Shown: positions 1-32,094 of the stretch, in pieces
Numbering within the stretch: position 1 is the first letter of the stretch
Layout of the letters: every line of letters starts with the position of its first letter
DNA from: Physcia stellaris
Taxonomy: Eukaryota; Ascomycota; Lecanoromycetes; Caliciales; Physciaceae
Direction: 5' to 3'
Assembly (NCBI GenBank): GCA_018902385.1
Contig: JABSSW010000006.1
Span: 868,001-932,000, forward strand
Length of the DNA stretch: 64,000 nucleotides
The notes under the pieces: generated by a model
Databases searched by the model: none
What the model saw: the letters and a program-made list of their open reading frames with translations, nothing else
What the model was told of the DNA's origin: nothing
Translations under genes and position numbers: made by a program

Positions 1-3000
1 TTCATTCAATTCAATCGTTTTAACGATAATTGCAATATAAACGTAAACGAATTTTAATGTTTTGATTAGTTCGTTCGATTTGATCATTCGTTTGAAACTG
101 AAATGTTGTGAACAATTTACATTTGATTTTTAAACGTTTGCAGAAATTTTTCAAACGCGATTCACAAATTGATCATTTCGATTCGAAACGATAAAAAAAA
201 ATAAATCATGCGTGCGAAATACGTAATGAAACAATATTTTGACGCATGTTTCGATTGTCAAATCGTCATTTTCGATCACACAGAAAACATAATGTCGTTT
301 TTTGATTAATCGATCGATAATAATGCAAATAACGTTGTTTTTTTTGAATTCAAATAATTCGATTATAAAATTTATCGAAATATTCATTTATCGTTGATTA
401 AAAATTGACAATGATGTTAATAATTCATGACGATCATCGTGAAAAATTTTAAAACGTTGACATTTGTGACAATTACGAATGTAACGTTTGATAAATAATC
501 GCATATTAAATCAATAATAATAACGTTTAATGAGTTTTTCAATGCGATTCATGTTCGAATGAACACAAAAAAATTGATCGTGAACATCGCGAATTATTTC
601 AATCATGAAATTTAAACGATTTGATATTCATAAATTTTCGTTTTTGAAAAGAACGTTGTTTCGATTTGAACATTTTTGTAAATTTATTTTTCGTTGATGA
701 TTTGTTCATCGATCAAAATTTGACGATAATTAATGCAATTTTCATTTTTTCGATTGATTTGCATTATTCGTTCGTACAAATCGTTTTGAACGTCAATCGA
801 ACATAATTGCAATCGAAAAAACGACAACAAAATTTGTTTTTTATAAAGTTTTCGTTCGTCGTTATCGACAAAACGAAATTCAAACATTCGAATCAAAACG
901 TTCGTTTTAATATTTTTGATTTCGAATTGATATTGAATTTTGATGTTGTAATCGATCAAAATTTTTGCTCGACGTATTTAACGAAAAATAAATTTTTTGT
1001 TTGTCATGAAAATTTTCAAATTTTTGTGATCGATGTAAATTTCGACGAATTCGTCGATGTTTTCGAATTCGAATTTTCAATGTTTCAAACATCGAATAAT
1101 GATTAGAAATTTTTTGTCGTATATTTCGTAATTGCATTCGACAAAAATCATTTTTTTGCTGAAAAAAATCATCGAATAAAAAAATTTTTCGTTATCGTAT
1201 TGCGACAGAATTTCATTCAAACATCAATTCGATGAATCAGTTTCTAATATAATTTTACGATTACGATCGTAATGTCGAAATATGAAAATTTCGATAATTT
1301 GTTTTTTCAATGTTTCGAACGTTTCATTGACGAAATCGATTCATTCGAAATCAATTTTTTTTTTGATCATTCGAATCAAAAGTTTGACGAATTTGAAAAA
1401 TGTTTTGATGAAACGACGATAAAAATTGCAAAAATTCACAAACGTTTGCATTTTTTTAATGCAAATTAAACGAATTCAATTGACGATATTTTGAATTTTT
1501 TTGAAATTCATACGTAAATTTTCTGTCGTCAATATGACGTTCAAAAATGAGATTTTCGTTTGAAAAAATTCGCATTTCTTGATATCAATTTGAAATTCGA
1601 CTTTTTTCAGTTTTTGAAACATTTGTGTGAAATGTCGTTCATGTTTTTTTTCAATTTTGTTGTAAATAAAAATATCGTTCAAATAAATTTGACAAAAATG
1701 ATTAATATATTCGAACAACAAATCGTTCATGTAATGTTGTCAATTCGTCGAATCATTTGTTAATTCGAAAAATAATACATGATATTTGTAAATGTTCAAC
1801 GAACATATAAAGATAATCAGTTTTTCGTTTTGTGAATTCATTCGAAATTTATTGAAAGTTGATATGATGTTCAATTTGAACAAAAATTTGCAATCTATAA
1901 TTCGAACAAGAATTTTTTCAATCAATGATATAGAATATTCATTGCGCTTGATTATAACGTTCAATTTTCGATAATTCACACAAAAATGAAATTGTTCGTT
2001 CGATTTGACGACGAATAAAATGAACGATGCATACGATATTTTGCTTGAATTGATAAATTTTTTTTGAAAATTCTCGTGAAAATATTTTTGAAAAATTTCG
2101 AATTTTTTTGACGATAAAAAGTAAACTCGATTTCGAAACAATTGTTTCGATTTTTCGATCAATTCGATTTTGTGATCGTAAAATTTATGAAAAAATAATT
2201 TATCGATTTTTTTGAAATTGAACACGTTTTCGAATCGTTTAAAAAAATCAAAAATTTTTCGTTTCAATTTCTCGACGATTGCTTTCATGATTTTAAAAAT
2301 TTTTTTGAAATCGAAATCGAAATCAAATTCTGTTTTGATTAAATTTTTTTGACGTTGTCAATAATTTCATTTAATTTTTTCATGATTAGCGAAAATGTCT
2401 TGATTTTTTTTTTTTTTTGATTTTGTCAAAAATTGATAAACAGCGACGTCGATAAAAACGACGTTCAAAAAAACATCAAAATCGAAATTTTGTTCGTCGT
2501 TTTCATTATCAAAAATCGAAATTTTAAATCGACGATTAAATCGTCGAGCAGATTTTTTGATTAAATTCGATTTTCGAACAAAAATTTTCACGAATGTAAA
2601 TTGTTGAAAATTTCGTATGATTTTAATTCGTCGTTTTTTTCTCGAAAATTTGACAAAAAAATATTTTTATCAATTTTTCAATAGCATATCGAAAATTAAA
2701 ATTCAATATGTTTTTGAAAAAAAACTTTTTTTCATTTTCGAAGTTCTCGACGATAAAAGAAAAAAATTTAATTTTAAACACAAATGACGTCGAACGTTTT
2801 TGAATAATTTGATATTTTTGAAAATTCATCGATATCGAGAGTTTGTTTGACGATATTGATAAAAAAAAATATAATTTTTTAAACGAAATTGAACGTTCGT
2901 TTTTGATTTTAAAAATTTTGAATGTTTCGAAATGAAAACAGCGATCGAATTTGAAAATAATTTTATCGTTTTTCATGTCGAAAATGATTTCGTGAACGTT

Positions 3001-4600
3001 CATTCAAAATTTATTCAATATCAACGAATGAATTTCGATTTTGATAATGAACATAAAAATAATGATTTTCGAATGATTTTGTACAATAAATGTAAAATAA
3101 ATGACATGAATAATGAATTTAATTTCACGATTATCGAATTCGTTGACGAATTTCGATCGTGATAAAATCACGAAAATTATTTGAAATGTTTCACAAATCA
3201 TTTGCGCAATTTTTTCATCAATGAAAACGTATTCAATAACATTTGTATTCATTAATGTTTGCAAATTGTGTTCGTATTTATCAAAAATTAATGTACATTT
3301 AATTATTAAAAAATTGTTTTGAAATTTATTGAACGTGTTGAATGTTTTGAACATTGTTGAAATAAACAACATTTTCGTCGCGATTTTGAAAAAATTTAAA
3401 CGTTTTTCGATTCATGATTAAAAAAATTTTATTGTTGATATCATTAAAATAATCATCAAAAAAATTTGATCGAATTCAAATTGAAAATTCATCAAAAATT
3501 CATTCATTTCGTTGATTGTCAAAATGTTTTTTTTTTGTTTAATTTTTTTGAACAATCAAATATCGATGATTTTAAAAAAAAATAATTTCGTATCAAATGA
3601 TTGAAATTTTCACAACGATAACAATTTTTATCGATGTCATTTTTATCATAAAAAATTTTCATGATCATTTGATCGACGACGAACATGATTTTTTTGACGT
3701 TGAACATGCTATCACGAATTACGATTTTGACAATTGATATTTTGAAAATAATTCGTGAAATATTTTTAGATGTCGAATTTTCGAAACGTGTGATTTCAAA
3801 AAAATGTAATTTTTGATTCATTTTTTCAATCAATTTTTTTAAGTTTTCGATTGTTTCAAATCGATCGTTATTAACAATGATTCGTTGCAATTGAAAAATG
3901 AATTTTTCGCGAAATTCATCGATCAGATTTTGTTTTGAATAATGAAACAATTGATTGAACAACATCAAAAATTCGAAAAAAAATTTCGAAAAACGTTGAT
4001 TGATACGCATGATAAAAATTTTGAATTTATTGCGTACGTTTCGTTTTTTGTTTTTTTAACATAAATCAAAATCAAAACATCAAAAATCATTTGAAAAATT
4101 TTGAAATAAACAATGTCGATTTTACGTCGAACGAAAAAATGTTCGCGAATTTTGTTTTCGATTCAATTGATGAATGTCGTTGTTTTGATATATTCGTCGA
4201 CGAAATAATCAACGTTAACAATGAATTTGTTTTTGATCAATTGTTTTCAAATTTCGTAAAAAAAATTTGAAATGTTTTCATTGAATTTGAAAAAATTCGT
4301 CATTTTGACATTTTTATTTTTTTTATCGATGAACAATGTGAAACTGAAAATTGATATTATTGTGATTTTTAAAAAATTTATTTCGTTTTGCAATTTTATA
4401 TTGCGATTGATCAATTTAGCATTTTCGATTTTGAATTTGATGTCATTTTGAAAAATGAACGTTGTTGTAAAATTCATTCGAAAAATATTCATTTCGTCAC
4501 GCAACGTCTGATTATTTTTTTTGAATTTTTCATTTTCGATGTTGAATTTGAATTTATCGACATTGAATTGATTTATATTTTTATTTTTTCGTCGAAATAA
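1..4600 (-). mobile_element. Fossil Ty3/gypsy LTR retroelement, broken
   Basis: The element reads on the minus strand, so Gag lies to the right. A Gag-like region with a recognisable zinc-knuckle area lies at about 3519-4010. Aspartic-protease-side sequence would fall at about 2370-3000. A reverse transcriptase of Ty3/gypsy type is recognisable at about 1476-2288, including the fingers and palm and the region of the catalytic box. RNase H and integrase sequence would lie below 1.4 kb and run out of the window. The element is heavily broken throughout by the CpY-type mutation. I could not identify either LTR with confidence; a right-hand LTR, if present, would lie between about 4.6 and 5.8 kb. 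Family assignment rests on RT order and similarity; age cannot be dated from one copy. Confidence 0.75.
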
Positions 4601-6093
4601 ACTGACGATTTCTCGATTGTGTTTTTTTTTTTTTCGATTTTTTCGAAATTTTTGAACAACGAGTTATAATTTTTTACGTGAACGTTTCAATTTCAAACAG
4701 TTTGAATTTTCGAGTCACGATCGATTTTTAGTTGATTCAACATTTGCAATATCGCGAAGAAATTTTTGCGAATTCATTGTTAAAACTGTTCGACGATACA
4801 AATGTTTATCGCATGTTTCGCATCGTTCGAATTGTAATTTGCGTTTTTCGAAAAAACGTAATTTAAAAAAATGTTTTTTATCAATTTGAATGAATCGACG
4901 ATAATTTGATCATTTTTCGAAAAAATTGTTAATTGTTGAATTTGATTAAGAATTTTGCGTTTAAATTTAGAAAAAATGATCACAAAAAAAATGTTGATAA
5001 AAATAAACATGACTGAAATTTTAATGCAAAAAAAAATTTCGTTTCAATGAATTCGACAATAAATATTCAAAAATAATCGTGTTTTAAAAATTTGATCGTG
5101 AAAAGCAACGAAAGCAATTTTAAATTAATGTTATTTTCGATGAAATAATTCGTGTTGATTTATGATGAATAATTTCTGATGAAACGATGAATGTTGAATT
5201 TCGATTTATCGTATAAATGTTTGTTGATTGATAATTTGACGATTATTTTTGCAATTCGTTTTTCGATATATTCGATTTGATACATCGATTTTCGCGATAA
5301 ACATTTTTTTGAAAATTTTGTACAACATTAGAGCGAGTTAAATTCTTTGTTTTTTTTTTGTTGATTCGTTGAATAGAATCGAGTTTTTTTGTTCAATTTG
5401 ATTTTGAAAATGACGTTTTAGATTTTCGTGATTGATTTGAAATTTTGTTTATTGAATAAATTGTCGTATTTCGAGCAGTTTGAAGAAAATGAATGACTTA
5501 AAAATAATGTGAAATGTCATGCATTGATTGAACTAATACATAATTACACGAGAATTTTTAAATGAAAAGCAAATACATGAGAATTTGTAAAAACATATGT
5601 AAAAAATTAAATCGTTTGAATGCGTCAAGACGAATTTCGATTCTAACATTCGATGTGATAAGATAAAAATGTTAATTTTAGTGATTGATCAAATGTTGAT
5701 TTCAAATGTTGAATTCGATGCACGTTCGTCACATTATTATTTTTTTTATTTGATATTGTCAAACATATATTCGTTATTGAAAATCAATGACGCGAACAAA
5801 CATTAACGACGATCACGAAATTTCGTATCATCAAATTTTTTGAATGCGTAAAATATTTTGATTTGATTTTGTTTTTTGAATTTGTACAAAAATTTTTGAT
5901 GAACGAATTGAAACAAACAAAAATCGTCAATTGAAATGATGAAAAAAAATTTTTTTTGAACGACGATATCGTTTGCATCATATTCAACGATTGTTTGTTT
6001 TGACGTAAATATCAATTATTTTGCAAACATATATGACAAATATATGTTTTTGTTGACGTCATTATCATGAAACATTGAATTCGTTTCGCGTGA
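4600..6093. other. AT-rich relic DNA without a recognisable gene
   Basis: This stretch shows the same damage as its surroundings, with slightly more surviving CpT and ApG around 5330-5700. Short open frames on the minus strand (4780-5010, 5784-6015) have no recognisable domain and share the Pro/Gly-free composition of the block. It may contain the right end of the retroelement or a second repeat. I see no LTR pair, tandem array or promoter that can be supported. Confidence 0.5.
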
Positions 6094-6462
6094 ATGTTTG
6101 ATGACGACGATTTCGAAATTTACGAAAATACAACGACGAAATACGTCAACAAAAATATGAATAACGTCATTGAACGTTCGAACAAACATTTGTTGAAAAT
6201 TAAAAAAAATTTTGATAATATCAAAAATCGATATTACGAAATCGCGAAATACATGAAACGACACGCGTTCGATGAACGTCATGTTTTTATTCAAAAATGA
6301 ATTGACAAATTTCGTTTGTTGACGAAATCGATACGACAACAAAAAATGAAACAAATCATCAATGAAATTGCGTTCGAAAACGATAAATTTATCGACGACA
6401 AAATCATATTTCGTGAACGACGACGACGACATTACGAAATCGACAACGAAAACGAAAAATAA
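6094..6462 (+). pseudogene. Unidentified coding-like relic at the edge of the AT block
   Basis: On the plus strand the translation looks protein-like: an acidic start, then a long basic, helix-prone and Arg/Lys-rich stretch and a second basic stretch, all in one frame. The minus strand here is also open (6016-6477), as expected when CpY mutation leaves few stops, so strand is uncertain. The orientation is opposite to the retroelement to its left, which suggests a separate relic. It is broken and carries the same mutation signature. I do not recognise a family. Confidence 0.35.
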
Positions 6463-6834
6463 ATAAATAATTAGCAATACAAAAAATCAAAACATCAAAA
6501 AACATTATACAAAAATTCGATAACGACGAAATGCGACGACGAAATGTAATCGAGAAAAAATGAGATTTTCGTTGTTTATTATGAGAGTCACACCGAAAAT
6601 ACCTGAGACGCGATTTGCATATGATGAAGATTGCAGTGGCTGGGCAGGCTTCTCTAGTAATACTAAAAAATAAAAAACGCCTGCAGTATAACGGCTCCCA
6701 GAATGGAAAGTCTAAGCGAACCTCTTCTGCAACTTCATTCAAGACGAGCTTTGCCTTGGACCCGCAAACTGTTACCCGTATCACAACCTCATCCTTCCCG
6801 TAAATGATCAATTGACTATTGTGTGGACTTGATC

Positions 6835-7753
6835 ATGCTTTCACGACAAGTGAGGGCACTTGCCTCGCGCTCCGCTGCCCAACGGAGCAGTATACCCAGT
6901 GCGCCTCTACGAGCCTACGCCCAAGTAGCCTCCACACAAGACACAAAGCCTCCAGTCGCAGTGTACGGCATTGATGGCACTTATGCAAGTGCACTGGTAT
7001 GACAGTTCTCCCAAGCTCTCTTCCTGTTCGCAAGCTCTCCAAACAGCTGGGTACGAGACTAACGTTCCCGACTCTCAGTACACGGCAGCCGCCAAAACCT
7101 CTTCCCTCGAACCCACCGCCCGCGCTCTCACAACTCTGTCGGAAGTCTTCAAGAGAGACCCCAAGCTACCCACCATCCTCGGCGCTCCTACTTTAACCCC
7201 GAGTGATAAATCCCAGATCGTGCAAGAGCTTCAGAAGCATATGGGCAACATTGAGAAGGGCGACACGGTGAAGAACTTCATGAAGACTCTTGCCGATAAC
7301 AACCGGCTGGGTATATTAGAGGGCGTTTGTGAGAAGTTTGCGGTACTGATGGGGGCTGCGAAAGGGGAATTGGAGATGGTGGTGCAGAGTGCTAGTGTAA
7401 GTCATTGGGTAGAGGATCGTAGAAGGATATAAAGGAAAATACGTAAAGTGGGTCAATTAGGGAATACGCTTGCTGACGTTTCATGGGACGCAGAAACTCG
7501 ACAACAAGACGCTGCAGAGGCTGGAGACCGCCGTAGCCAAGTCAGAATATAGCCAGGGCAAGAAGCTGAAAGTTGTAACAAAGGTTAGCAGCGTCGAGGG
7601 CAATATCCTACACATTGGAGTTTAGGCTAATTGTGGTAGATCAATCCGGATATCATGGGGGGCTTAGTGGTAGAAATTGGGGACAGGACGATCGATCTTA
7701 GCGTCTCTGCAAAGATCACGAAGATGAACAAGCTGTTGACTGATTCACTATGA
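6835..7753 (+). CDS. ATP5: Mitochondrial F1Fo ATP synthase subunit 5 (OSCP)
   Basis: OSCP joins the F1 head to the peripheral stalk of mitochondrial ATP synthase. Four exons fit: 6835-6996, 7079-7396, 7494-7583 and 7640-7753, giving 227 residues, normal for the family. The first ~30 residues are basic and Ser/Arg-rich, as in a mitochondrial targeting peptide. Family signatures are the segment VYGIDGTYASAL joined to YTAAAKTSSLEPTARAL, then LETAVAKSEYSQGKKLKVV and the C-terminal GDRTIDLSVSAKITKMNKLL. The first intron has a clear GACTAAC branch site before its acceptor; the third ends at GTGGTAG after GGCTAATTG. The gene starts about 290 bp from the edge of the hypermutated block, whose damage does not enter it. 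It is convergent with FMC1. Confidence 0.93.
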
Positions 7754-8498
7754 GCGTAGCGGCAAAGACAAGTCTTTATTATTCGTTTAGCATCCGGCCC
7801 CAAGCCCAAATGTACCCATGCGAGGACATGTGAGCCATATGTATCGGGACTGATTGTACATCAATTGAATTAGAGATCATTGTTAGAACCATGATCTTGC
7901 AGGTCCACTACTGTCAACGCCAACAGCGAATGGCAACATTGCTCTAATCAATCACCTACGAGACCTGAACCTGTTGAAGAACTGCAGTGATCTTCCAAGC
8001 AGCCATTATAGAAGACCTTGGTGTCACCAAAAACTGTCCGATAAACGCACTCCCAAACAGGCGTTTCATGCTAAGTAGTAGCGGCTGAATTTTCGCTGGA
8101 GGCTGCCGATGTGTCTTTTGAGTAGCTAGTTCAACATCCACAGACTCGCAGGTTGCTTCTGGAATGGCGGAGTGAAATGTCAAGAACCTGGAATCGGGCA
8201 ATAAGGTAGAGGCGCCTGGTAATCCCCCGAATGCTTGCCAGGCTTTGTCGAAGCGAGCAAAGGAGAGCTTCGTGTAATTGCAGGTGTCCTCTCCAATTGC
8301 TAGACCGCTATGCCTTCTGCAATGGGTTGGGAATGATGGGATGCGACTTGAAGACTTCGTCCATATCTTTCGACGGCTTTCTGGAACCTCGAAACATTCA
8401 TGTGTCTGCATAATTCTGTTCCACTCCACCAGTCACCGGTAGTTGCAGAATGTTCTTTCTTTCTGAACTTTCTCATCGTCATCGTCGTCGGCTCCTAA
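7754..8498. other. Convergent intergenic region with weak minus-strand open frames
   Basis: This lies between the 3' ends of ATP5 and FMC1. Two overlapping minus-strand frames are open, 7956-8429 (157 codons) and 8300-8482 (60 codons), and a third frame near 8340-8410 also reads protein-like. None matches a family I know and I found no convincing intron joining them. They begin only about 17 bp downstream of the FMC1 stop, leaving no room for a separate promoter, so 3' UTR sequence or an unrecognised small gene are both possible. Confidence 0.3.
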
Positions 8499-8819
8499 TC
8501 ATCCTTTTTTCCCAAAATTCCATGCCTCAGGCAGTTCCATGCCGACCCTCCTAGCCGTCAGTCGCACTCTCTCTTCCTCATCCATAGACATGCCAGGATT
8601 GTATCTCTCCAGCAAAGTTGCATACATCCGTTGCGCCTTGGCATACTGGAGATATTGTTCGCCCTCTTCCACTTGAACTGTAGGATCACCCGTGGGAGCA
8701 GTGGAGAAGGTCGTTCGAATGCGTTGTTGGATTGGGGATGGAGATGAAAGAGGCCGATGGGGAAGCTCACGGAGGATAGAGCGATAGAGCGAACGGAGCC
8801 GGGAAGACGATGTGGGCAT
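8499..8819 (-). CDS. FMC1: ATP synthase assembly factor FMC1 (LYR-like)
   Basis: A single-exon frame of 106 residues. FMC1 is a small mitochondrial matrix protein that in yeast supports assembly of the F1 sector, working with Atp12. The N-terminus carries the LYR-type motif LYRSILRELPHR (residues 11-22), the hallmark of the LYR/FMC1 family. The middle, YLQYAKAQRMYATLLERYNPG, is the amphipathic helix typical of FMC1, followed by a short polar tail. Length agrees with other fungal FMC1 proteins. The gene is divergent from the EngB-type GTPase and convergent with ATP5, so two ATP-synthase genes are neighbours. Another small LYR protein is the main alternative. Confidence 0.75.
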   Translation of the reverse strand: MPTSSSRLRSLYRSILRELPHRPLSSPSPIQQRIRTTFSTAPTGDPTVQVEEGEQYLQYAKAQRMYATLLERYNPGMSMDEEERVRLTARRVGMELPEAWNFGKKG

Positions 8820-8995
8820 CGCAATTGCTGTGGTGGTGATTTTCCGTCAGGCAGAGGCTTTCTCTCCTTGAAAGATTCTTGGGGTCTTGGACCTCGGCAA
8901 ACCTTTCCTCGATCGATTCGAGCAAGTCCCTTCATCCCATCCTCTCGACTTGTAGCCAACGAGCTCTCCATACAGACCCTTGTATTTTCAAGTGG

Positions 8996-10077
8996 ATGCT
9001 AACATTTGCGAAAAGGAGTCGTGGGGCACTTGAGTGGGGCGTCTATGCCAAAACCCAGGCCATACGGCTTGTGGTCTTCAGGCTGGACTGGTCTCGTACC
9101 TCCCTCAGAAGAGCCAGCACCTATAATCACCAGCAAAGTCTGTTTCCCAAAAACGAGGGGGAATCACCAGTAACCGCATCTCCCCTCACTGTAGCGTACT
9201 ACTGGGATACTGCCGTTCCCACACCATCCCAGCTTCGAGAAGCCGAACGCTTCTTCAATCGTCCCTCTCCTACACTTCTGTATTCCACAAACGAATTCCG
9301 CAATGTCAAGATCAGCTCTCTTCCGGAAGTGGCCTTTCTTGGCCGTTCCAACGTTGGCAAGTCGAGTTTGCTGAATACTTTGATGGGCCGAAATATATGT
9401 CACACGAGCAAAAAGCCCGGAAGGACCAGGTCGATGAATTTCTTTGCTGTGGGAGGAGAGGATGGGATGGGCAACCCAGGGAAGGTTGTGCTGCTTGACA
9501 TGCCTGGCTACGGGAAGGGCAGTCGAGAAGAATGGGGAAAAGAAATCATGAAGTATCTTGTTGGAAGAAAACAGTAAGACTATCCAGTCCGCTTTGAAAA
9601 TGTCAGATTCGGCTAACGACACGACGTAGGCTCAAACGAGCATTCCTTCTCATAGATGCTGAACATGGGCTCAAAAAGAACGACAAAGAACTACTTGAGC
9701 TTCTCCGGCAGAACGCTGTATCCCATCAGGTTGTCCTTTCAAAAGCAGACCGCATAGTCATGAGTGGGCCGAGAACACCCAAGGACCAGCAGCTCCAAGT
9801 CCGGTCCGAGAATCTCCGCAAAATCTGCGAGGATATCCGCAGGGATATTCAACCTGCCGATAGCGATATGCCCGTGGCCCTGGGCGAGCTGATAGCGTGT
9901 AGTGCTGAAAAATCTATCAATGGTAAAAGACTTGGAATTAATCATTTGCGCTGGGCAGTGCTAGCAGCTACAACCACCCATAGTCCCGGAAGAATGGTCA
10001 CTAAGAAGCTCCTGACTCATGATCACAGCGGTCAGTCGAATACAAATCACGACAGGAATCGTCCGCCTCCGTCTTAA
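8996..10077 (+). CDS. Mitochondrial EngB/YihA-type GTPase (MRX8-like)
   Basis: A TRAFAC GTPase of the EngB (YsxC) family, which in bacteria acts in large-subunit ribosome assembly; the yeast counterpart Mrx8 is mitochondrial. Two exons (8996-9573, 9630-10077) join as GRKQ-LKRAFLLIDAEHG and give about 341 residues. The G1 loop is GRSNVGKSS, switch I region KKPGRTRSMNFF, G3 DMPGYGKG, and the G4-like segment VVLSKADR; the last helical part (SAEKSINGKRLGINHLRWA) is typical. The ~100 residues before the G domain are basic and Ser/Arg-rich, consistent with mitochondrial import. The start is uncertain: an ATG at 8879 is in frame, but 8996 leaves room for the divergent FMC1 promoter. Confidence 0.87.
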
Positions 10078-10436
10078 GGTCCGAGTCACTTGTTGTCATG
10101 GCGTCACAGTGCGTTTCTGACTCCTGCGACGAATCACCTATATTAGGTCCGCCACTGACATGTGAAGGATCCTTCCATCGTGAGGTCCCTCCTCTTGCCG
10201 TGTCATGCGCTTCTTGAGTATGGTTGTTCAGGGTCTGAGATCACGTTGGCATTTCATCAGAGCTTGGCTACGGATCCAGCATCATGCTCGAAGCAGGTTC
10301 TGCTTCCCTTTCCTCGCCATCATTGGTGCATGGCATCTCATGGTTATCCACAACTGCTTAAATCATGCTAAGATCGAGTCCTTCGGTAGATCATACCATC
10401 ACCTGACCCCTGTGTCAGTCAATCAACAGGAGTTGC
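10078..10436. other. Intergenic, no gene seen
   Basis: This separates the convergent EngB-like gene and the F-box-like gene. Short plus-strand frames (10162-10371, 10205-10471) have no recognisable features and the second overlaps the end of the next gene on the other strand. Nothing else is supported. Confidence 0.5.
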
Positions 10437-11249
10437 TCATAGTGGCTTCAGAGCCCACTTACAATCTTTGAAGATGACAAGTAAAAGCCCTTCCGTATCT
10501 CGATTTGGAACCGCCACGGAATTTATCAATAGGATCAGAAACAGAGAAAGTGGTATGTCGGATGCCTGCTTTTTTTCTGGAACAGAATGGTTACTTGCTG
10601 GCTCATATGAGCTGACATCTTGACGATCTTTAAGCAAGCAGAAAATTTTCAGTTCAATGTCCAGATCTAACTCCATCGGTGCGAAAGAATCTATCGTACC
10701 CGTGTGGATCATATGCACCTTCTCAAGATGTGGCATCCGATTGAGTTGTTCGCGTAATCTTAGAATCAAACTGCCGGCGCTCTTGGTAGCTATCCTCTTG
10801 ACCTCAAGGGAAAGAAAAGGTACACGAACTGCCAGATGAACCTCACAGACTCTGATGTGAGTGGTTCCAGGAAGATGGAGATTGAGGTTGAGCCACTCGG
10901 GGCCATAAAAATCTGTAACTATCAAGATCAACGATAGCGTACTGTACACGATTTCTGAAGCTCCTTCATAAACTTGTTTGTTGACTCGCAGCAGGGCAAA
11001 GTTGAACTGGTGGGATAAGCCCCATCCTGTACGCTTAGGGTACTGAGTCGAGAGGGCTTCTCTCGTCAATACCTTATCGATCTTCAGTGTGTGCTGATAT
11101 ATCTTGTTTCGAAGCTCCGGTGGAAGTCCCAGAAGGTTGAATGTGCCTTTTGGCGACGCAAGACTTAGGTTCATGAGTGTGAGTGTCGAAGAAGGCTCAT
11201 CCTCAATCGGGACCTTGCTGCTTCCCCTGATTATTGTTTCAGAATCCAT
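10437..11249 (-). CDS. 2EXR / F-box-like fungal protein of unknown role
   Basis: A single exon of 270 residues. Residues ~37-52 carry the motif FNLLGLPPELRNKIYQ, the typical opening of the large fungal family of 2EXR/F-box-like proteins. The rest shows the family's usual pattern: LLRVNKQVYEGASEIVYS (residues ~86-103), where a conserved Asn/Gln-Val-Tyr-Glu element follows the predicted helix pair, then a mixed alpha/beta region. These proteins are abundant and fast-evolving in Pezizomycotina and their functions are mostly unknown; links to SCF ligases are assumed from the F-box-like motif only. There is no signal peptide or membrane segment. The ATG chosen is the first of the frame. Confidence 0.75.
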   Translation of the reverse strand: MDSETIIRGSSKVPIEDEPSSTLTLMNLSLASPKGTFNLLGLPPELRNKIYQHTLKIDKVLTREALSTQYPKRTGWGLSHQFNFALLRVNKQVYEGASEIVYSTLSLILIVTDFYGPEWLNLNLHLPGTTHIRVCEVHLAVRVPFLSLEVKRIATKSAGSLILRLREQLNRMPHLEKVHMIHTGTIDSFAPMELDLDIELKIFCLLKDRQDVSSYEPASNHSVPEKKQASDIPLSLFLILLINSVAVPNRDTEGLLLVIFKDCKWALKPL

Positions 11250-12314
11250 GATGAGTAAAGATCTCGAAAAGTAAATGATTTTTTGGGAATGTCAGACAAT
11301 GTTACAGTGATTCCTAGGACATAAGGGAGGCACGACGAAAAACAGAGTGTAGAAAGGAAAAGTTTTTGTCCTCTGTGGATTCAGGAGGGTACAATGATCG
11401 GGTAGCAATACCATGATTTTAATGAATATCGTATTACTCAAACTCAGAGTGTGAATTTCAGTTTAATCTAATTAAACAGCTCCTCCATCACATCCATGCT
11501 AAACCGTCAACTATCATTCATCCACATTATCACTCCCTTGATATTCCACTCTCTTATGACGAGTTCCTCAACCACTACCCTCTTCAAACAAAAAAATGAT
11601 ATGCAGCTCCCATTCCTCCCAATACGAGCTGATCTCCGCTCTGAACACCAAGGAATGAAGTCTCCATTTACTAACAGAGGCTTCATCAATTATTCCAAGA
11701 ATCAACTATTCCCGGCCCGGGAGAAGGGGAGTTCACGGGCAGTTGCGAAGTATCAACAAAATGGACAAAGTCCATCTTCACTCCCTCTCTTTCTCTGTGT
11801 CTCTAACCCTATCCCAGATCCCGAATGGGCAGAGGGCATTGTGGACGGCATTCACAGCGAACATCGATTAGACGCAGAGAAAAATATATGAAGGAAGGAT
11901 CCGGATTCAGGGGGATTGTGGGTGAAGCTTCGATCTTGGGATCTGAATTATGCAAAAACCGTTCGATAGTACTGGGGCATCTTCGGCTTCTTGAATGGGT
12001 TGGAGGTGACATATCATCCTTTGGTATAGCTATCTAAGGTCGGGGTCGCTTCCGCGACACAAAGGAGGATCAATCAACGACGGGAAGCAAGAAATTGGTG
12101 GTTGCTTACTTCACTGGGGATCAAGGTCTACCTACGAGACTTCTGGTACAGCAACGTAGAGGCTGATGCTCCTCATTGGTGTAACACCATGAGTCGTTGC
12201 GGAATGCTACAAGAGTAGTCAAGAAGATGGTATGGCCATAGTCGGTCCTTCCGTATTCGGGCTCCATCGATTCTCAGAGGTGGCCGAGGCAGAAGGCCCA
12301 TAGCGTGTACACTA
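11250..12314. other. Intergenic, no gene supported
   Basis: About 1.1 kb between two minus-strand genes, so it contains the promoter of the F-box-like gene at its left end. Plus-strand open frames at 11496-11891 (131 codons) and 11825-12037 have no conserved motif, domain or splice pattern that I recognise. I see no repeat or RNA gene. Confidence 0.45.
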
Positions 12315-14413
12315 TCACGACTTCATCTCATAAGCCAGACATCCCGTCCCATCCAGCACCTTCCATATCTGAGCGCTCTTCGGCTTCCCAAGGGACTCTT
12401 TCTCTTGAGCCAGTGTCCGCCTATCCATCGCCCATCGCATCACCGAAAGCTGCTGTCCTTTGCTCATGATACCGTGCGCACCAACAACATGGGCTACAAT
12501 CCGCCGCCAGATATCCTCCGTGAAGCCGGCTGGGAGCTGTGATCGGTAGGGTACTTGCGACTCTGGTCGGGTAGGTTTAGATTTTTGAGGGGATGGAGTG
12601 GTGGGCAGCGGAGGAGGAACCGGGGTTTGCGGACTAAGCGCGATGGGGGTGAGAACTAGCTTTCCGTTTCGGTATTCTTGTCCTAGCCGAAGTGTTTGTG
12701 GCTGGTTCGGGCTTCGCGAGACAAGCGGTGCGGGCTTGTGGGGACGCTGAAGAGCTGTCCCTATAGAGATCAAAGTCAGAACGACTCTTTCGGAAAATAG
12801 TGAATAACATGACAATAGCAAGGGCCGTTCCATCTCACTTACCATTTGAAGCTGAACCATTCTGAAAAGGGGACCTGTTCTCGTCCGACCGGGAAGTTGA
12901 CTGTTGCCGCCTGGTCTGACAGATAGCCCTACCAAGACAAAGCATCCTTAATGCGGTACGCCAGAGATTGTTGCCCCTGGCGCCATAAACTCGTAGCGTA
13001 TTCCCCTGTATTCGGCTTCTGGCTCTCTCTAGTTCCAAAGATGCCATGCTGTAGGTTCCTTCTTCCAGTCGTGTCTCAGGAGAATCCGGATCTAGTTCGT
13101 CCCATAGATTCCGTCTTACCAGCTCCGCAAGTTCAAGCACCTTCATGCCTGCATTGCCAAGGCCGATGTTCGGATAATACAGGAGTCCGTGACATCTCCG
13201 CTGCCGTCCACGGTCAGCTTTCTTCTACTGGACTTGGAACTGCAAGGCACCTACTTCGAGATCGTAGGCTGCCAAATGGTGGGCTGATGGCCCAGCTTTG
13301 GCTGGCGGCACACGTTTAAGAAGCTGTGTAGGGGGGAAATGAAAGGAGACGACGTATGAAAGATGCAAAGCACATGTTTCCGTCATCGATGTATCTGTCG
13401 GCAGCGTTAGTTAGCTTTTGCGATTTTCTTTGCAGATTTTGGAGCTACTAGCAATCGGCGGTTGGTGAAATTTTAACAAAACTCACCCGCAAAGATGAGA
13501 TAAGGTATTGAACGAAGACCACGAGCTGTGGCATAGAATCTCGTTGCTTGTGTAGTCTCCGCAATGTTAAAGTTGTCGAATTGTCCCTCAAGCCCACCGT
13601 TCTTCCCAGCTGTACTACTTTGACCAAGTGCAGGATGATAGCGACCGAGACATTCATCGTTAGTACTAGTGAACAAGACTGGTTCTTCACTGCCATATAT
13701 CTTGGTAAGCGTCTCGAAAGTGCGGATCCCTGATGGAGAACGGCATTAGCCTCTTGTTGCTTAGAAAGCTGCAGACAAACGAAAGCGTCTTGGATGGATT
13801 TTCCTTCCAGTTATGTGCCTACGAGACTCAGGTAAATACCATACCAAGGGGATTGCCGCTGAAGTCTATTCGACGCAGAACGTAACACTCGGCAAAGGAC
13901 TCCATGAAATATTCCATTGCCGCTGTATCTTCGTCGGTAACAATAGAGATAGAATTGTTTGAGAGATCAAGGTCCCTAAGGTCATGCGCTGCGAGTCGTA
14001 TTACGTGCCCCAAATCTATCAAGCACCTCGCGTCAAGTCTGTTATCCTTGAGACATAGCTCCTCCAACCGGACAACACTGCCCTGGTCGCCATGGTATTC
14101 GATAGACTCCACTAGAGCATTTGCGATCTCCCGGAATCCGTCACTTCCTAGATTTTTCCCGGTTACATCAAGCTCCACAATCGGGTCCCGTAAAGCAGCC
14201 TTTGCATGTAGGTTTGGAGGTATTCGCTTGATCTTATTGAGACTTAGCCGTTATGTTATCGGTCCTTTGACGTCTGGGATAGGCGTACGAGGTCTTTAGC
14301 TACTGCCTGGCCTAATTTAAGCCCTTCGATCTTTCGCTGGCAGTTATGTGTCAGCTGGGAAAAGAATAAAGTTAAGCTTGTTGCCTTACGTTGGTATAAT
14401 TTGGTCTACCCAT
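12315..14413 (-). CDS. Leucine-rich-repeat protein, seven exons, function unknown
   Basis: The spliced frame is 548 residues from exons 14413-14390, 14336-14289, 14232-13845, 13729-13487, 13394-13255, 13200-12843 and 12760-12315; all junctions keep frame. Residues ~40-150 contain ribonuclease-inhibitor-type LRRs, e.g. IVELDVTGKNLGSDGFREI, LEELCLKDNRLDARCL, LRDLDLSNNSIS and LRRIDFSGNPLG. A conserved middle block follows (LGRYHPALGQ; FADTSMTETCALHLSYVV; LLKRVPPAKAGPSA; LGNAGMKVLELAEL). The C-terminal third is Pro/Ser-rich and ends in a conserved patch (LPAGFTEDIWRRIVAHVVGA). LRRs usually bind proteins; this fungal family has no known job that I can name. The first exon is only 24 nt, so the start is the least certain part. 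Confidence 0.8.
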
Positions 14414-14841
14414 GGTGCAGTTCTTGCAGGGTCAAAGGAGGGTGCAAATGTCAAGGTGCTCATGGGTTACAGGCGTGGTGATTGGGCGAATGAGTGATGC
14501 TTCGCGCCTTCACGGAATCCCGATCTGGAACAACACCTCGGTTGGTGGCGAACAGAAATGAGCTTAGGGTAGGTGCATCTGAAAGGGTACAAACTTCTGG
14601 CTTGGAGAGCCTGACAACCATTCGTTCGCTTACTCCTATCTCGAAACATAAGAAGGCGAGAAGTGTCTACGTAGGAATCACAGGCCTAATTGCATCCTCA
14701 GGAAGCTTGGAAATCTACCGCAAGGCTACCAAAAGCTTTGTTGACACGCATCTTAGCACCTAACAGCACATAAGTAAAAGCAAATTGACCGTGATCAATG
14801 AAAGCATGACAGTTGCAACTCGGTTGAGGGAACAAAGACGA
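14414..14841. other. Upstream region of the LRR gene
   Basis: This lies between the start of the LRR gene and the stop of the MER3-type helicase, both on the minus strand, so it serves as 5' region for one and 3' region for the other. The short open frames in it have no recognisable content. Confidence 0.5.
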
Positions 14842-17800
14842 TCAAGATACTTGCGTGTCTTCCGGCCACCATTCAACTAGATGTCCGTATTCGCGGACAA
14901 AGTAGGCCAAGAATCCGGGGTCAATGTCTTTTGTCCATTCAGGGAGCAAAGGTTGTTCGTTATCATCTTCCACAGGGTTTGCATTGGAGTCCGCTTTTGA
15001 CGTTGACGGGTCCAAGGTTTGACTGCTATTTGGGCTGGCTTCGCAGGTTTCTCTGTCTGCGCAGGTCTCGACCAGTCTCTCCGTCTGCACCATTATCCTC
15101 GGTTTCTTAGCCAATCGGGGTCTTGACGATCTCTCACTTTCGACGTCGCTATCCACATCTACCTTGCGTTTCTCGTTTAGTCTCTCTGGCTTTTCGGGAC
15201 TGTCTGTTGATAGAAAAAGGCGCTCAGACCTTGAGCCTCGAGCAGGACCAGCTGACGAGTGCAGATAAGCAGGGTTTGTCTCTCGTTCTTCACCGATGTT
15301 GTAAGATTCCCAATCGTCCCCATCGTCAGGTACTGCCGATGCTTGATTGTCTTTCGCGCTTTCAGCTACAGCCGTGGAGTCATCCAAGCCAATCAGAGCA
15401 GCCTCTAGGTCGGAGTCTCCCTCATCAGAAGGCTCGTCAGAGTTGGGTTGACAAGGCTTGTCTGGCGGTACTCCGTCTTCAGTAGGCTTTCCCAGAAGAT
15501 CTGATGTTGATGGCAAATCATCCATCCAATCATCCTCGTATTCGCTAGAAACGTTGACCGTCTCGAGATGGTCTTGCTTTTGACTAAGGAATGAAAGCTG
15601 TGACTGAGCTCCCTCAGAAGAGGGGAACGAAGCTTTCGGCTTCAGCATGATTCGAACGGACGGAGTTTTACTAATTTTTTGATGAAGGCGATGGAGCTTC
15701 TTGAAGTCCCGCGGGCTATCTGTCGCATACTCTTGTAGATCTCGCCCTCTGCTTGGTTCGACCCTGTGAATATTCTGCGAAATAGGACCATGATCTTTTT
15801 TTGATTTTACGGATCTTGGCTGAGTAATGGTTACTGCTTCAGTGACCGACGCATTCGCGTTTTTCGGCAAGTCTTTAGAAGGCTCCCCAGCTGCATTAGA
15901 GGACTTCGGAGGTTTTGGCACCTTGTCAACACCTTCGCGACAGCATAAGTGCTTGCAGGCCGACTTATCCTTACATTTGTGGTTGCATGCCCACTTGCCA
16001 TTCTCAAGTTGGGTAGGGTTCCAAACGTCTTTGTTCCCGCCTCCTTGTAAGACCTCAATTGACCTGGCTTTACTTTTCGTCGATGCAGGTCTTGTATTCG
16101 CATTTTCTCGGTTCAGGGCTTCATTTGCATCTGCGAGAGCCATGAAACCCTCTTCGTCCAAATCACTGTCCGCAAATTCGTCGTCTCTTGGATCAACTAA
16201 CCTTTGCTGCAAAGTTTGGCCACTTTTACGGCCTTGATTGGTAGAGGATCGTTCTTGATCCTCATGATTTGGCTCATCAGTGTTTCCGGGCTTCTGCCGC
16301 TCAGGCGGTGACACGGGAAAAGCCGAAGCTGGCAGGCCATGCTTCAGCTCTGCAAAACGCATAGTACCCGCGATTTCATCACACATAACGTAGCTTGTAA
16401 TCGATTGTTCATGTTGGGTCAGCAGAGCAGACATCAAAATGTCTTGGCCATTGGCGAGCTTCTTCGCACTGATGCGGCGGAAATCGATGAGCATACCATC
16501 GGATCTTTCCACAAGGAGGCATACGTAGATCGGTCGCCGGTGGAACATTGTTGGAGGGCGATCGTTCAGAAAGCCGCATTCAGCTTTAATATTAATCTTA
16601 ACCGACTGTTTCTGCCTGACTTCCTTGCCCATGAGCTTCATTGAGACGCGCAATTTCGGAAAGTCTCTGAGGCCTCCAATGAGCTTTTGACCAAAAGGTG
16701 GGTGTCTGCTCATTAGAGTCTCGATACGGTGTGGTTCTGTGGTCTCCAGAGCTTCAATACTATTAACGCCACCCATGGCCAGCTTCCGTATTGCTGCTAG
16801 CCCAATTTGCGGTAGTTGTTTCATTTGAAGAGGCGAGTTGTCCCATACTCGTGCACTGAAGCTTCTTGCTAGTTCCAGAGCATGTCGTGCACCAATAGCA
16901 TCTTGGCGGTGTAATTGGCAGTCCACGATACAGCGGATCAAGCGATTGACATGAGAGAAGACCATCGCCTTGTCCTGATTGTATTGCCGCTTGTGTTTGC
17001 TGTACTGTTCGTCCGCAGGGAACTCAACCCCACCAAGCTCAGCTTGTATCAGAAGACTCCTCTTGTGTGCGTGAAGGGCTAGATCGACTTTGATAGGGAA
17101 CTTAATACCATTCGCTTTGTTAAGCTCCTTGAAGAGCGCCTTTTCACCGGCTTTTAAGCGAATATCGCGATACTCTTCTGCTTGGGAGACGGCAGATAAC
17201 TACATTTGTTAGATATGGAACGCAAACATGAAAGAGAAGACATACGATCTCGGAAATTTTGGGCTTAGGCCCAAGACTTAACAAGATCCTCATTGTTTCG
17301 AATTTGATGCAATAACGTGCCATTGCGTCCCCGAACTCCGTGCATTTGAGTTTTGCTTCCGTACCCTTCGTACACAATAGGTCGTTATCCTCGAGAAGGC
17401 GAAGGTCTCTCTGGCAGATCCGCTCGATTCTTTCATCTAAATTGAGGTTCCTTGAGTCTCCATCAAGTTTGTAGTGATCAGGGTTATGACCGAGACGGAC
17501 GGCAAGAAAGGTACCTGCGAGCCATCTTTTCGCAGAGTGTAAATCGTAGACTGTTCCCAATCCTACCTCGGCGTTCTGTTGTAATCAGCGACTTTGGAAA
17601 TGCGCTCTTGACCTACAATACTGACCAGATGATCGATGAGATTCAAGTGCAGACTGATGATTCGTCAGTTTAAAAAACACGATCGCGTGTACTCTCTTGT
17701 GCTGACCAGCTTTCCAGTGACTCTTCTCCAGACATCATTTTCTCATACTTCTTGGCCTTCTCCTGTTTAGTTATAATGACGGCTACAGCACTGTCATCAT

Positions 17801-19855
17801 ATTGAGGTCTGCGAGATGTCAGGTTTCAGCCCATAGCGAGACAAGACAGGGATTTTGAGATACCTTCCCGCACGCCCCAGCATCTGCATGATCTCCAAGT
17901 CTGCGTATTCCTTGATTCCATCGTCCTGAAAGCATACAGTGTTCTTGATGATAACTAAATGGCACGGTAAATTGACCCCAACTGCAAGGGTGGACGTGCA
18001 GCAGATCACGTGTATCTGCCCTTCTAGGAAACCTTTTTCAACAGCATGCCTATCTGGCAGATCAAGTCCGGCATGGTGGAAAGCAACACCAGACGCCAGC
18101 ACGCCTAGAAGGTTCAGCGGACGATAGTGGAAGGAGCGGCGGGATTACCTTTAAGCTCTGGATCTTGTACCACGACCCTGAATGTAGGCCCCGGCCATGG
18201 GCGATCTCTGGGACTCTTTCCAGCCCAGAGACTCGCCAGAAGTTTTGCCGTCGAAATACAGGACTTTCGGGTCATGCAAAACAGCATCATTGGCTTCTTA
18301 TGTGAGTGCTTTGAAATAATATCCGGAAGCCTACCAGGTGTTAGCCTCTCCTTCTCGGTAAGCTGTTCGACATGAAAGGAAAATCTACTTCGGGTCACAC
18401 GCAGTCTCGAAACCAAAATCACTGCCTCGGTACGGTAGACCGTAGACAAATTTTTGTAGTTTAACTGGCCGGAAAATTTCCCCGAACCGCTCCTGCCTGG
18501 CAGGAGAATGCTCGCTAACATGGTCTTTGCCAAGCCATTGTGCAATGTCCTGCGAGTTTGGTACAGTAGCACTCAGCGCCACAAACCTGACATTGGTCTG
18601 AACGGACTTCATTCGAGAGACGACTGCTTCCAAAGTGGCACCTCTCGTCTCCTTGAGTATGTGAACCTCGTCAATGCTGGTATAAAATCAGCGACATCGC
18701 CCAGCTCCCGAAAATCCTTTCACTTACAGGAAGAGCTTCACCAGTTCCATAAGCCGCACGTGATCCTTCCATTTCCTTGTCATGCTATCCCATTTTTCCG
18801 GAGTAGTGATGATGATACTGGCATTTTGGACATGGCGCAGTTGGGCATGATCGGTATCGCCCGTCAGCTCGGCACATTGTAAGTCGAGAGAAGAAAACTT
18901 GGCTTGCCAATCGCGCTGTCTCTCGGAGCAGAGTGACTTGGTTGGGGCCATGTAGACGATCTTGTACTGGTCAGACTTGAAGCCCAGAAGTAATTTACAG
19001 ATAGCCATCTCCAAAATAACGGTTTTGCCACTACCGGTTGGTGCTGACACCACTAGATTGTCATTGGACACAAAGACGGACTGGTAGCATTTTGATTGCA
19101 CTGCGTTGAAGAGCTGAAAAGGAAAGACGGATCGGAATCGGTCAGAGAGATCATTCGGGGATACTAGTTGTATTCCTTGAACGATTGGAGGAGCATGGTT
19201 GAGTGCGAGTGTTTTCGTCTGGACTTGAGCTTGAGGTTGGGTGAAGGATGGGAAGGCCGGCTGTGAATGGATTTGTGAAGGATGCTGCTCGGTCTTGTGG
19301 AATTCTTGAAAGTCTCGCCTTTGAGTAAGCGCGAGAGAGGGGCTTGAAGGCAGGCAAGTAGGAGGCGATGAGCTATGTTCGACCCTGTGGTTCGTAGGCG
19401 TACTCAGATACTGGCCTTGCATGGTGTCAACTATGGTCATCGACTTGTAGGTGGCCCACTAACCAAGACTCATCTGAGGCTGCACTTGAGATGTCACCAC
19501 TAAAGATGCAACATCAGGCCGCTGTGAATCGTTGTCACACACGCGAACACGAACCTCTGCCGTAGTCAACTTGTGGACCTCTCTGGTGCATAGGGTTTGG
19601 AGCTTCCAGGAAGCTTGAAGCCTGCAAGTTCTGAGACTCGTATAGCGGTTTGCGACTCTTGGTTGCATGTGAGATTTGTTGTTCACGAATGGGATGATGT
19701 TGCATAGCATTGGACCTGTGGTAAGGAACGCCCGGCTGGGTGTATGGCAAAGATGATTTAGGGTAGTTTTGCATCTCGTCCGGACTTTGCACATCTCGAA
19801 GCAGTGCTTCGATCTCCGACGGAAGACGGCTCATCCTAGTCGTGACGGGACTCAC
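14842..19855 (-). CDS. MER3: Meiotic DNA helicase MER3/HFM1
   Basis: A Ski2-like superfamily 2 helicase. MER3/HFM1 unwinds and extends joint molecules in the ZMM pathway of meiotic crossover. Motif I is SAPTGSGKTVILEMAI (near 19030), Ia MAPTKSLCSERQRDW, Ib TTPEKWDS, II DEVH (split by an intron near 18675), III ALSATVPN, V STLAVGVNLP and VI EIMQMLGRAGR. A winged-helix region follows, then a Sec63 domain in the large last exon (14842-17199), opening around AIRKLAMGGVNSIEALETTEP. The acidic C-terminal tail holds a compact Cys/His cluster, KWACNHKCKDKSACKHLCCREG, known from fungal and animal HFM1. Around nine exons; tiny exons occur near 17600. The N-terminal exons (19440-19855) and exact start are not resolved. 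HOP1 lies 4 kb upstream. Confidence 0.9.
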
Positions 19856-20270
19856 TAGAAATCGAATCTGGCGGTGTTTGAGGAACTATCGAAGCCTCGA
19901 GGGCTAGGGGGGTTGAACGGAAAGATGGAATTGTAAGGTACCTTACCTTTCCCCACAAGAGTATGAAATCACGTGCCTTTTACACTGGACAGATTGGGAT
20001 GGAACCACGCTTTGGCCGTTTGCCCATGGAAAAGTAAAAGATCAGAATGAGGGCTGACGGTACATCGAAAACCCCCGGTTGTCGCCCAAATATTAGAAAA
20101 ACAATATAGACAAACTCACCTTATGGTACTCGACTGATTATTTATCATGCTATATACACTGTGTATATATCACATCAGTCTCCCAATAATCAAAGTATCG
20201 CCTGAACCCATTATTTCGGCCATGTAGGGATATAAGTACACAGCTGTCAGATGATTGAGCCCATTCTTAA
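19856..20270. other. Upstream region of MER3
   Basis: This lies between the MER3 start and the stop of the large disordered-protein gene, both minus strand. A TATA-like palindromic stretch at about 20150-20170 is visible, but its role is unclear. No gene is seen. Confidence 0.45.
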
Positions 20271-22619: not shown

Positions 22620-23769
22620 GGCGACAATGGGTGGAGGATCGGTAGGGTGCGGAGAGGATCGGGTCGAAACACGAGCAAGTTGAGTCGCGATGTCGATTGG
22701 GTTCGGCGATTGAGTTTGAGGGCGCTTTTGTTCGGAGTCGGTGTGCTTAGCTTCTTTAAGGCATGTTCGAGCTCGTCTATGTGGTATGATGGGTGCGCCG
22801 AGGAGACGGATGGGAGAGGACCGCGAGTTGAAGAGGGTAGAGTGGCGGTGTGCGGTCTGGGGGATGAAGAAAGAGAAGGTATTCGAGCGGCCAGAGGTTG
22901 ATGGACATGATGGCCGGCTGCCAATTTGGCAAGTGGTTGGCGTTCCTCAAACAATTAGTCGGTAGCGTGGGCTTATGTGGCTCGATTTGAGTCAAGTCTG
23001 GGAGACTAGAAGCCTAGTCCAGCGATGTTCAAATCGTCACAATGCGAACCAGGGGCTCAGGAAATTGCGAAAAAGCGGCGATGGTCAAGCTCCGCTGATC
23101 TGCATCTCTCCTTTCTCTTCGGTCCAGAGCATTAATATTTGATCAGTCACAGAGGCTGATGAATGGAACAATAATAATTAGAATTGGCATGGATGTGGTC
23201 GCTCAGCTTTGGCACAGGGAACGCTCGGGCGTTTTACGGAACCGCCATTTTTAGCTCCGACGTAATGATACAGTAGCGCGCATGCAACGGAAGATGGCAT
23301 TATGCCCGTTGTCTGGGGTTTGGTACGACGTCAAACTCAAATTACATTATCTTCTCACAATGCGATAATCCCTACTCGATCGATCACGGTTGCACAAGTC
23401 TCAGGCAAGGGAAATACGGCAACACAGGGCTCCAGCATGATTCGGTCCATCTAAATGCAAAGATCGCTCCTTGTTAATTGCACCATTAGCTGCCGCTTGG
23501 GACTGCTGCTGTCGGGATGGAGGTATATTATTTCCATTCCACTAGAGCATTGGAAATTGCCAGACGGATGCGATCGACGACCTTTCAGCTCGACTTCGAA
23601 ATTCATTTTCGAACAACAAGGCTCAGATATCTTCGGGTTCTCAAATATTGCAAGAGCAAGGCAAGTCTGTATTGCTCTTAAGAGCACTGAGAGAAAGCCC
23701 ATTGAAAGGACCATACCGTACATTGTAGCGAATGCCAAGGACTCTGGGCAGAGGAAGATAGCACGATCT
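22620..23769. other. Intergenic, promoter of the disordered-protein gene
   Basis: About 1.15 kb between HOP1 and the 782-residue gene. Open frames here (22385-22954 minus, 22647-22965 plus, 23451-23805 both strands) overlap one another, differ in frame from the neighbours and show no conserved motif. It should contain the promoter of the downstream minus-strand gene and the 3' UTR of HOP1. I see no repeats. Confidence 0.45.
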
Positions 23770-30100: not shown

Positions 30101-30192
30101 ATAGGCGAGGCAGACGCATCGTTGTCAATGCAGAAGGGCAAGAGGTACCAGACCCTCACGACGCGGCCATAGATCTAGAGGTCGACGACTAG
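27130..30192 (+). CDS. CDC4: SCF ubiquitin-ligase F-box/WD40 subunit Cdc4
   Basis: Cdc4 is the substrate receptor of an SCF E3 ligase that recognises phosphodegrons, classically of CDK inhibitors. Three exons fit: 27130-27405, 27462-30005 and 30061-30192, about 983 residues. Residues ~30-370 are low-complexity, beginning with a Thr run. The dimerisation/F-box region reads EMKDYIMFQLLRRCPKP, then FFNLLPLELSLNIAGHL (F-box, ~376-420), then a conserved GELQRAIREGWGW. Eight WD40 blades follow (~590-950), e.g. LEGHEGGVWALQYEGN, GSTDRSVRVWD, GSMDNSVKVWS. The blade with VLDHKRNRCISGSMD followed by GHSSLVGLLDLQGDRLVSAA is characteristic of Cdc4 rather than Met30/SconB. The last intron restores the tail VLDFGAFKDGVPEHRRG. 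Pop1/Cdc4-type assignment is firm; the exact start less so. Confidence 0.9.

Positions 30193-30844: not shown

Positions 30845-32094
<1,250 letters not shown>

Follow-up and report, generated by a model that had tools for sequence, protein, structure and literature searches.

Which process strips a repeat of CpC and CpT while leaving CpA and CpG in place? The question is raised by the left end of a stretch of 64,000 nucleotides from Physcia stellaris (GCA_018902385.1, an assembly of 43.97 Mb in 147 contigs; contig JABSSW010000006.1, here C6), lying at C6:868001-932000 and referred to below as the window. Its first 6545 bases, the block, are made up of a hypermutated copy of a Ty3/gypsy-type long terminal repeat (LTR) retroelement and a second, adjoining repeat. 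A sequence-only reading of the window had proposed a hypermutation resembling repeat-induced point mutation (RIP) in which the mutated cytosine is followed by a pyrimidine (CpY; RpG on the complementary strand, R being a purine) instead of by adenine. Here, the contexts of change in a ribosomal DNA (rDNA) unit and the association of the signature with repeats are found to support this proposal.

Loss of CpC and CpT in the block

Exact counts in window 1-6545 agree with the loss of CpC and CpT, and of their complements GpG and ApG, that had been seen by eye: CC and GG are absent (0 each) and CT and AG occur 31 and 57 times, with 329 CA, 383 CG and 448 TG retained, so that neither CpC nor CpT is at a normal level. 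The minima over 1000 mononucleotide shuffles of the block were 57 for CC, 85 for GG, 246 for CT and 278 for AG. Expressed per kb as the mean of both strands, CpC is at 0.0 in the block versus 57.6 in the rest of the window and CpT at 6.7 versus 68.9; the corresponding values are 59.4 versus 68.5 for CpA, 58.5 versus 52.5 for CpG and 53.6 versus 42.7 for TpA. A recount of the first 660 bases gave CT 1, CC 0, GG 0, AG 5 and CA plus CG 81, as first reported. On the right, strong depletion ends at about 6550-6600. On the left, the depleted block continues upstream of the window, and CpC is at 0.0 per kb in the preceding 1.5 kb (C6:866501-868000, within the locus L005).

The open frames of the block do lack proline, glycine and tryptophan (0 of each), although the total of over 2,000 residues given for this lack was not reproduced, 938 residues being counted in stop-to-stop frames of at least 100 amino acids. 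Nor is it the independent sign that it was taken for, since with CC and GG absent no CCN, GGN or TGG codon is possible and the missing residues repeat what the dinucleotide count already says.

The guess that the usual RIP indices would overlook such a block proved correct. TpA/ApT is 0.39, (CpA+TpG)/(ApC+GpT) is 1.42 and the composite index is -1.02, all three RIP-negative by the RIPper thresholds quoted in the passages available of PMC7882544. Indices aimed at the two contexts already exist in RIPCAL, which defines (CpC+GpG)/(TpC+GpA) and (CpT+ApG)/(TpT+ApA) (PMC2621366). By these thresholds none of 12 index windows in the block is positive, and none of 397 in the related loci L005-L034 and L036.

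Direction and context of change in ribosomal DNA

The sole rDNA unit found in the assembly (L036, C41:43000-50000) is hypermutated throughout, and intact rDNA seems not to have been assembled. C-to-T changes (G-to-A on the other strand) were classed according to the base that follows, at upper-case positions of the Rfam consensus, which stands in for the functional rDNA of the species, absent from the assembly. The count covers part of the unit: two large-subunit and one small-subunit (SSU) block with an entirely or almost entirely lower-case consensus were left out, as were the poorly aligned first SSU block and parts of two SSU blocks beyond an insert. Relative to the Rfam model the SSU gene of this unit has inserts, possibly introns.

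Change was recorded at 50 of 60 conserved CpC and 29 of 66 CpU sites, as compared with 3 of 59 CpG and 1 of 65 CpA sites (Fisher test, CpY versus CpR p = 2e-26, CpC versus CpU p = 7e-6), which corresponds to 1.79, 0.58, 0.05 and 0.02 hits per site, respectively. The 83 changes counted at C or G positions that are conserved were transitions without exception, and 307 of the 313 conserved A or U positions were unchanged. The best reading of these contexts would be an order of targets of CpC > CpT >> CpA, CpG.

The hallmarks of classical RIP, namely a preference for CpA, enrichment of TpA and positive indices, were tested and are not what was found, given the single changed CpA in 65 and the RIPper-negative windows throughout. 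Classical CpA-directed RIP was consequently rejected, and the pattern is not assigned to it. That the element has always had an unusual base composition, or that the signature is an artefact of assembly, is scarcely credible: nothing was found in favour of this explanation, and the same change is met in rDNA at universally conserved positions and in unrelated repeat families, is graded between copies and has normal DNA as its neighbour; it was rejected on the directed change in the rDNA unit.

Association with repeats

A search for the retroelement family gave at least 36 match rows (33 of 723 first-look candidates were scored), and at least seven other copies match the query from 1 to 5733-5738 at 90-95% identity. 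The signature was present in all 30 copies that were cut out, with CpC at 0-3.0 and CpT at 2.2-33.8 per kb, CpA (53.0-59.8 per kb) and CpG (55.5-62.5 per kb) having hardly shifted.

Forty samples of 1.2 kb were also drawn at random from 27 contigs; these contigs had been chosen for carrying element matches, and the resulting estimate is hence biased. One sample (L064) consisted of N throughout and was excluded, leaving 39 readable; L039 lies inside L018, and L055 and L060 partly overlap L031 and L033. Eleven of the 39 were AT-rich and every one of these carried the signature, even the two lightest (L060 and L069) having CpC at 2.5-3.3 and CpT at 30-35 per kb. None of the 11 was of the classical CpA kind, and CpA as the main mutated context, which the sequence-only reading had named as a refuting result, was found neither in the 30 copies nor in the AT-rich samples.

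Paralogues exist for all 11 AT-rich samples. Seven have relatives in the set of fetched loci, the link being a single short or weak match each for L074 and L069, and a genome-wide search shows the other four to belong to multi-copy families. The 28 samples that were not AT-rich were compared with the fetched loci alone, so that their single-copy state is presumptive; 27 of them were normal and one, L077, was intermediate. In L077 (C6:610675-611874) CpC is at 24.6 and CpT, nearly normal, at 60.4 per kb; it is perhaps the edge of a block, or perhaps a case of light or early mutation with CpC going first.

The borders of the mutated stretches bear on the same association. Of four matches to the second repeat, three stop at window 6690 and the fourth at 6699, and CpY plus RpG rises from 5 per 100 bp at 6501-6600 to 23 at 6601-6700; no 200-bp interval right of 6500 holds fewer than 25. 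As strong depletion has ended by 6550-6600 and the repeat ends at 6690, the mutated stretch stops just inside the second repeat. At L013 the onset of depletion and the end of the match lie no more than 100 bp apart, as resolved in 100-bp bins. Mutation accordingly ends at or inside the end of the repeat at two of the three edges examined, the right edge in the window and L013, and beyond the match at the third, L006.

Comparison of copies with one another

Copies were aligned in three groups (A, B and C), from which six of the 30 are absent (L014, L015, L016, L022, L023 and L033). Among six close copies there were 658 transition-variable columns versus 78 with transversions, which together with the comparison of the rDNA with its consensus places C-to-T change on both strands. 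Where at least one copy keeps C, the fraction of T per copy was 31-96% at CpT, 6-24% at CpA and 4-19% at CpG over all groups. CpT sites were T in 64-81% of cases whatever the 5′ or +2 neighbour (64-79% for the 5′ bases), and this uniform loss indicates that essentially the next base alone counts. Mutated fractions were similar on the two strands in most copies, with imbalances in L012 (0.55 versus 0.76) and L021 (0.37 versus 0.24).

These observations bear on a dedicated DNA cytidine deaminase acting in place of a C5-methyltransferase. Known deaminases of the AID/APOBEC type read the base 5′ of their target, and deamination of retroviral minus-strand DNA is strand-biased. Eight candidate matches to the deaminase domain PF00383 lie above the curated cut-off in the genome, but the 5′ base is almost without effect here, the 3′ base decides and both strands are struck to a like degree, which makes a deaminase very unlikely. 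APOBEC-type hypermutation was rejected as first choice, neither its 5′ context (64-79% T for each base) nor its strand bias having been found.

The pace of the change is informative as well. About 240 CpY plus RpG per kb have been lost (253.3 reduced to 13.4), against a mean of 6.6 transversions per kb between the six close copies, which form the youngest group, a disproportion that points to a burst-like or enzyme-driven process rather than to ordinary drift. It also tells against a slow decay, in which long-lasting methylation of CpC and CpT in repeats by a DIM-2-type enzyme would let these sites erode as 5-methylcytosine deaminates spontaneously, the CpY loss being about 36 times the mean pairwise transversion divergence. 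The rDNA, moreover, loses CpC first and not CpT. A DIM-2-type gene is nonetheless encoded in the genome, DIM-2 methylates all CpN with a preference for CpT according to the passages available of a review (PMC13297926), and CpT loss is also high in group C, which looks older, its copies differing by 21.7 transversions per kb; on balance we regard slow decay, the main rival explanation, as unlikely.

Candidate enzymes

The search for RID, DIM-2 and deaminase homologues that the sequence-only reading had called for yielded, besides the eight deaminase-domain matches, one DIM-2-type gene and two that are RID-like by domain content. The PF00145 profile gave four scored candidates in the genome, representing three genes (L001, L002 and L003). 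L002 is by sequence relation a DIM-2-type methyltransferase (PDB 9bap, DIM-2, E 2e-181), with a complete C5-methylase domain (PF00145 positions 2-321 of 324); its BAH match is weak.

L001 (C6:791557) and L003 (C5:499307) each contain a C5-methylase domain; BAH was matched in neither of them up to E 0.1. The two are 40% identical over 174 amino acids of the catalytic part, and L003 is without profile positions 161-253 of PF00145. Their catalytic motifs presumably agree with those of RID. Both have frame breaks after the same IAS motif, and these breaks, including the TGA codons of L001, are taken as introns. From their domain content and their fit to the description of class I RID/Masc1 proteins in the available part of PMC4352252, L001 and L003 appear to be RID-like. 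They also share a region of conserved residues N-terminal to and outside the methylase domain, for which Pfam gave no match at E up to 0.1. L001 lies about 76 kb left of the window. An AlphaFold model of the L001 frame, computed from a two-row alignment, had a mean pLDDT (predicted local distance difference test) of 29.5 and was not used.

Proposed mechanism

The changes run from C to T in the rDNA, depend on the base that follows, fall on both strands and lie in repeats. They are probably the outcome of a RIP-like reaction in which an enzyme of RID-like or DIM-2 type follows a pyrimidine next-base rule; this is the most likely explanation because the 3′ base decides, repeats are targeted and the right group of enzymes is encoded. 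In such a reaction cytosines on both strands of repeats would be converted to thymine when a pyrimidine follows, CpC first and then CpT, and CpA and CpG would be nearly spared. The actor would be a C5-cytosine methyltransferase of the RID/DIM-2 group, most likely the product of L001 or L003, with an altered contact to the base 3′ of its target, and, like the RID of Neurospora, it might act premeiotically on repeats that have paired.

It is possible, and we put it forward tentatively, that the RIP enzyme of this lineage has switched its 3′ reading from purine (CpA) to pyrimidine (CpC and CpT), perhaps after duplication of RID, and that RIP at CpY is now the only strong form.

The effect on the targets would differ between the two rules. 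From the codon table, the glutamine codons CAA and CAG would be spared conversion to stops under a CpY rule and TGG alone would give TGA; when a host gene of 1010 codons is taken for comparison, stops are possible at 42 Gln and 22 Trp codons under the CpA rule and at the 22 Trp codons alone under the CpY rule. Elements would thus be disabled mainly as Pro and Gly are lost, with fairly long open frames persisting.

Several observations weigh against the reaction proposed here. At L006 the depleted stretch overshoots the retroelement match by about 260 bp (about 7243-7500), perhaps because another repeat lies there or because mutation has leaked into single-copy sequence. The T fraction at CpA rises slightly with mutational load, with slopes relative to the CpT rate of 0.033 in group A (p = 0.017) and 0.044 in group B (p = 0.001), so that CpA is not fully excluded as a target; in group C the slope is 0.009 and not significant, and no significant rise with load was seen for CpG in any of the three groups. 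The rank of CpC over CpT cannot be judged in the copy alignments, as CpC sites are few there (3-58) and are visible chiefly via the least mutated copy; in L021, 1 of 10 visible CpC sites is T. This rank would therefore have to be read from the rDNA (p = 7e-6) and from the densities. Strand-wise clustering as expected of a processive enzyme was not seen, concordance within 60 bp being about that of chance. Finally, the methyltransferases are candidates for the role, and the RID-like naming draws on domain content and catalytic motifs.

The slight rise of the CpA fraction in two of three groups could also be expected of two processes, a RIP-like enzyme weakly active on CpA, and selection or repair by which CpA and CpG sites are regained. 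Since CpA and CpG densities are near those of unmutated DNA and conserved CpA in rRNA is unchanged at 64 of 65 sites, this combination is highly improbable.

Features of the window

The features that make up the window are collected in Table 1.

Table 1. Features of the window, in window coordinates
Feature	Position	Strand	Remark
Hypermutated Ty3/gypsy-type LTR-retroelement copy	1..5733	-	Reverse-transcriptase frame matches Ty3 reverse transcriptase; starts upstream of the window
205-aa open frame with reverse-transcriptase homology	1740..2357	-	phmmer to PDB
178-aa open frame with CCHC-like stretch	3519..4055	-	Read by eye
Second repeat adjoining the retroelement	5736..6690		Hypermutated to about 6550-6600, the last 100 bp or so not
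Ordinary DNA, about 50% G+C, normal CpC and CpT	6691..64000		Contrast to the block

The Ty3/gypsy label of the retroelement derives from its reverse transcriptase, the 205-aa frame matching PDB 4ol8 (reverse transcriptase/RNase H) at E 2.2e-8 and 7q5b (Ty3 Gag-Pol) at E 1.1e-7 with phmmer; Pfam gave no family for this frame. The CCHC-like stretch of the 178-aa frame, which in the L013 copy reads CYRCEDFNHLIRNC, we take to be a probable Gag zinc knuckle, and Pfam gave no zinc-knuckle match there. Over the mutated frames as a whole Pfam returned no retroelement family, and several weak matches of coiled-coil type below the cut-off are taken as chance. An Rfam scan of the window gave no matches.

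Copies of the second repeat were found on C3, C2 and C7, with a fragment on C24. The C3 copy is interrupted by about 7.9 kb, its halves (C3:188116-188538 and C3:196453-196859) being relatives of window 5736-6560. By their coordinates the halves overlap by 5 bases at about window 6138-6142, as expected of the target-site duplication of an LTR retroelement.

In the part of the window outside the block, seven of nine long frames scanned contain Pfam families of cellular genes. One stretch of about 6 kb on the minus strand (window 33391-39728) is A-poor on the plus strand; it consists mostly of a 1517-aa frame with TPR/MLP1 nucleoporin domains and is an ordinary gene.

Relation to known systems

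The next-base preference of RIP has been treated as near-constant, and index tools test for loss of CpA and gain of TpA. According to the passages available of a 2025 survey of 1,239 fungi (PMC12543289), RIP-like defences have a CpA preference in common. In the open-access literature searched, whose coverage is partial and mostly leaves subscription papers outside, we found no report of a pattern led by CpC that spares CpA. About one quarter of the DNA sampled here (11 of 39, from the biased set of element-bearing contigs) is hypermutated and yet index-negative, which implies that the rule can reverse and that surveys can miss strong cases. Were the proposed switch of the enzyme true, such lineages would be scored as free of RIP by surveys based on CpA and TpA, and RIP would be more widespread among fungi than those surveys suggest. 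The CpY enzyme of this fungus and a CpA enzyme from another would then form a natural pair for finding the residues by which RID- and DIM-2-like proteins read the neighbouring base.

The closest framework is the RID-dependent, premeiotic RIP of Neurospora crassa, with which the present case shares C-to-T change on both strands, repeats and rDNA outside the array as targets, AT-rich gene-poor blocks and, here, putative RID-like genes. Unlike in Neurospora, mutation does not yield TpA, and the index built on TpA remains negative. The order of targets is CpA>CpT>CpG>CpC in Neurospora and CpA~CpG followed by CpT>CpC in Trichoderma reesei, according to the part of PMC5496416 available; CpC is thus last in both and would be first here, where the order reads CpC>CpT>>CpG, CpA. 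DIM-2 methylation, which is described for all CpN (PMC13297926, in part), differs from the present pattern in that CpA and CpG are nearly untouched here.

Targeting of CpT is shared with Magnaporthe oryzae, Botrytis cinerea and Sclerotinia sclerotiorum, which have one or two RID/Masc1-like genes (Amselem 2015, PMC4352252, passages available). In these three species, however, a CpA signature is present and those passages list no CpC signature; here CpC appears to lead and CpA is nearly spared. The rDNA unit resembles the rDNA pseudogenes of ascomycetes, non-functional units with C-to-T and G-to-A changes, of which PMC5555474 states in its accessible part that CpA/TpG is mutated most, in contrast to 1 of 65 conserved CpA sites here. 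Changes at CpC are also shared with Monilinia, in which double mutations from CpC to TpT occur, but there they stand beside classical RIP from CpA to TpA (PMC8959702, as far as the text available goes).

Outside this group, a CpG-biased hypermutation is known in Basidiomycota (available parts of PMC4352252 and PMC4014442). The C-to-T hypermutation of Rhizoctonia solani AG8 is similar to ours in that Table 2 of PMC4014442 lists CpC as the densest context of single-nucleotide polymorphisms, with one per 214 bp. It is different in that, in the portion of that paper available, genes and repeats are affected alike and the authors call the process CpG-biased, whereas in P. stellaris repeats are affected and CpG is spared.

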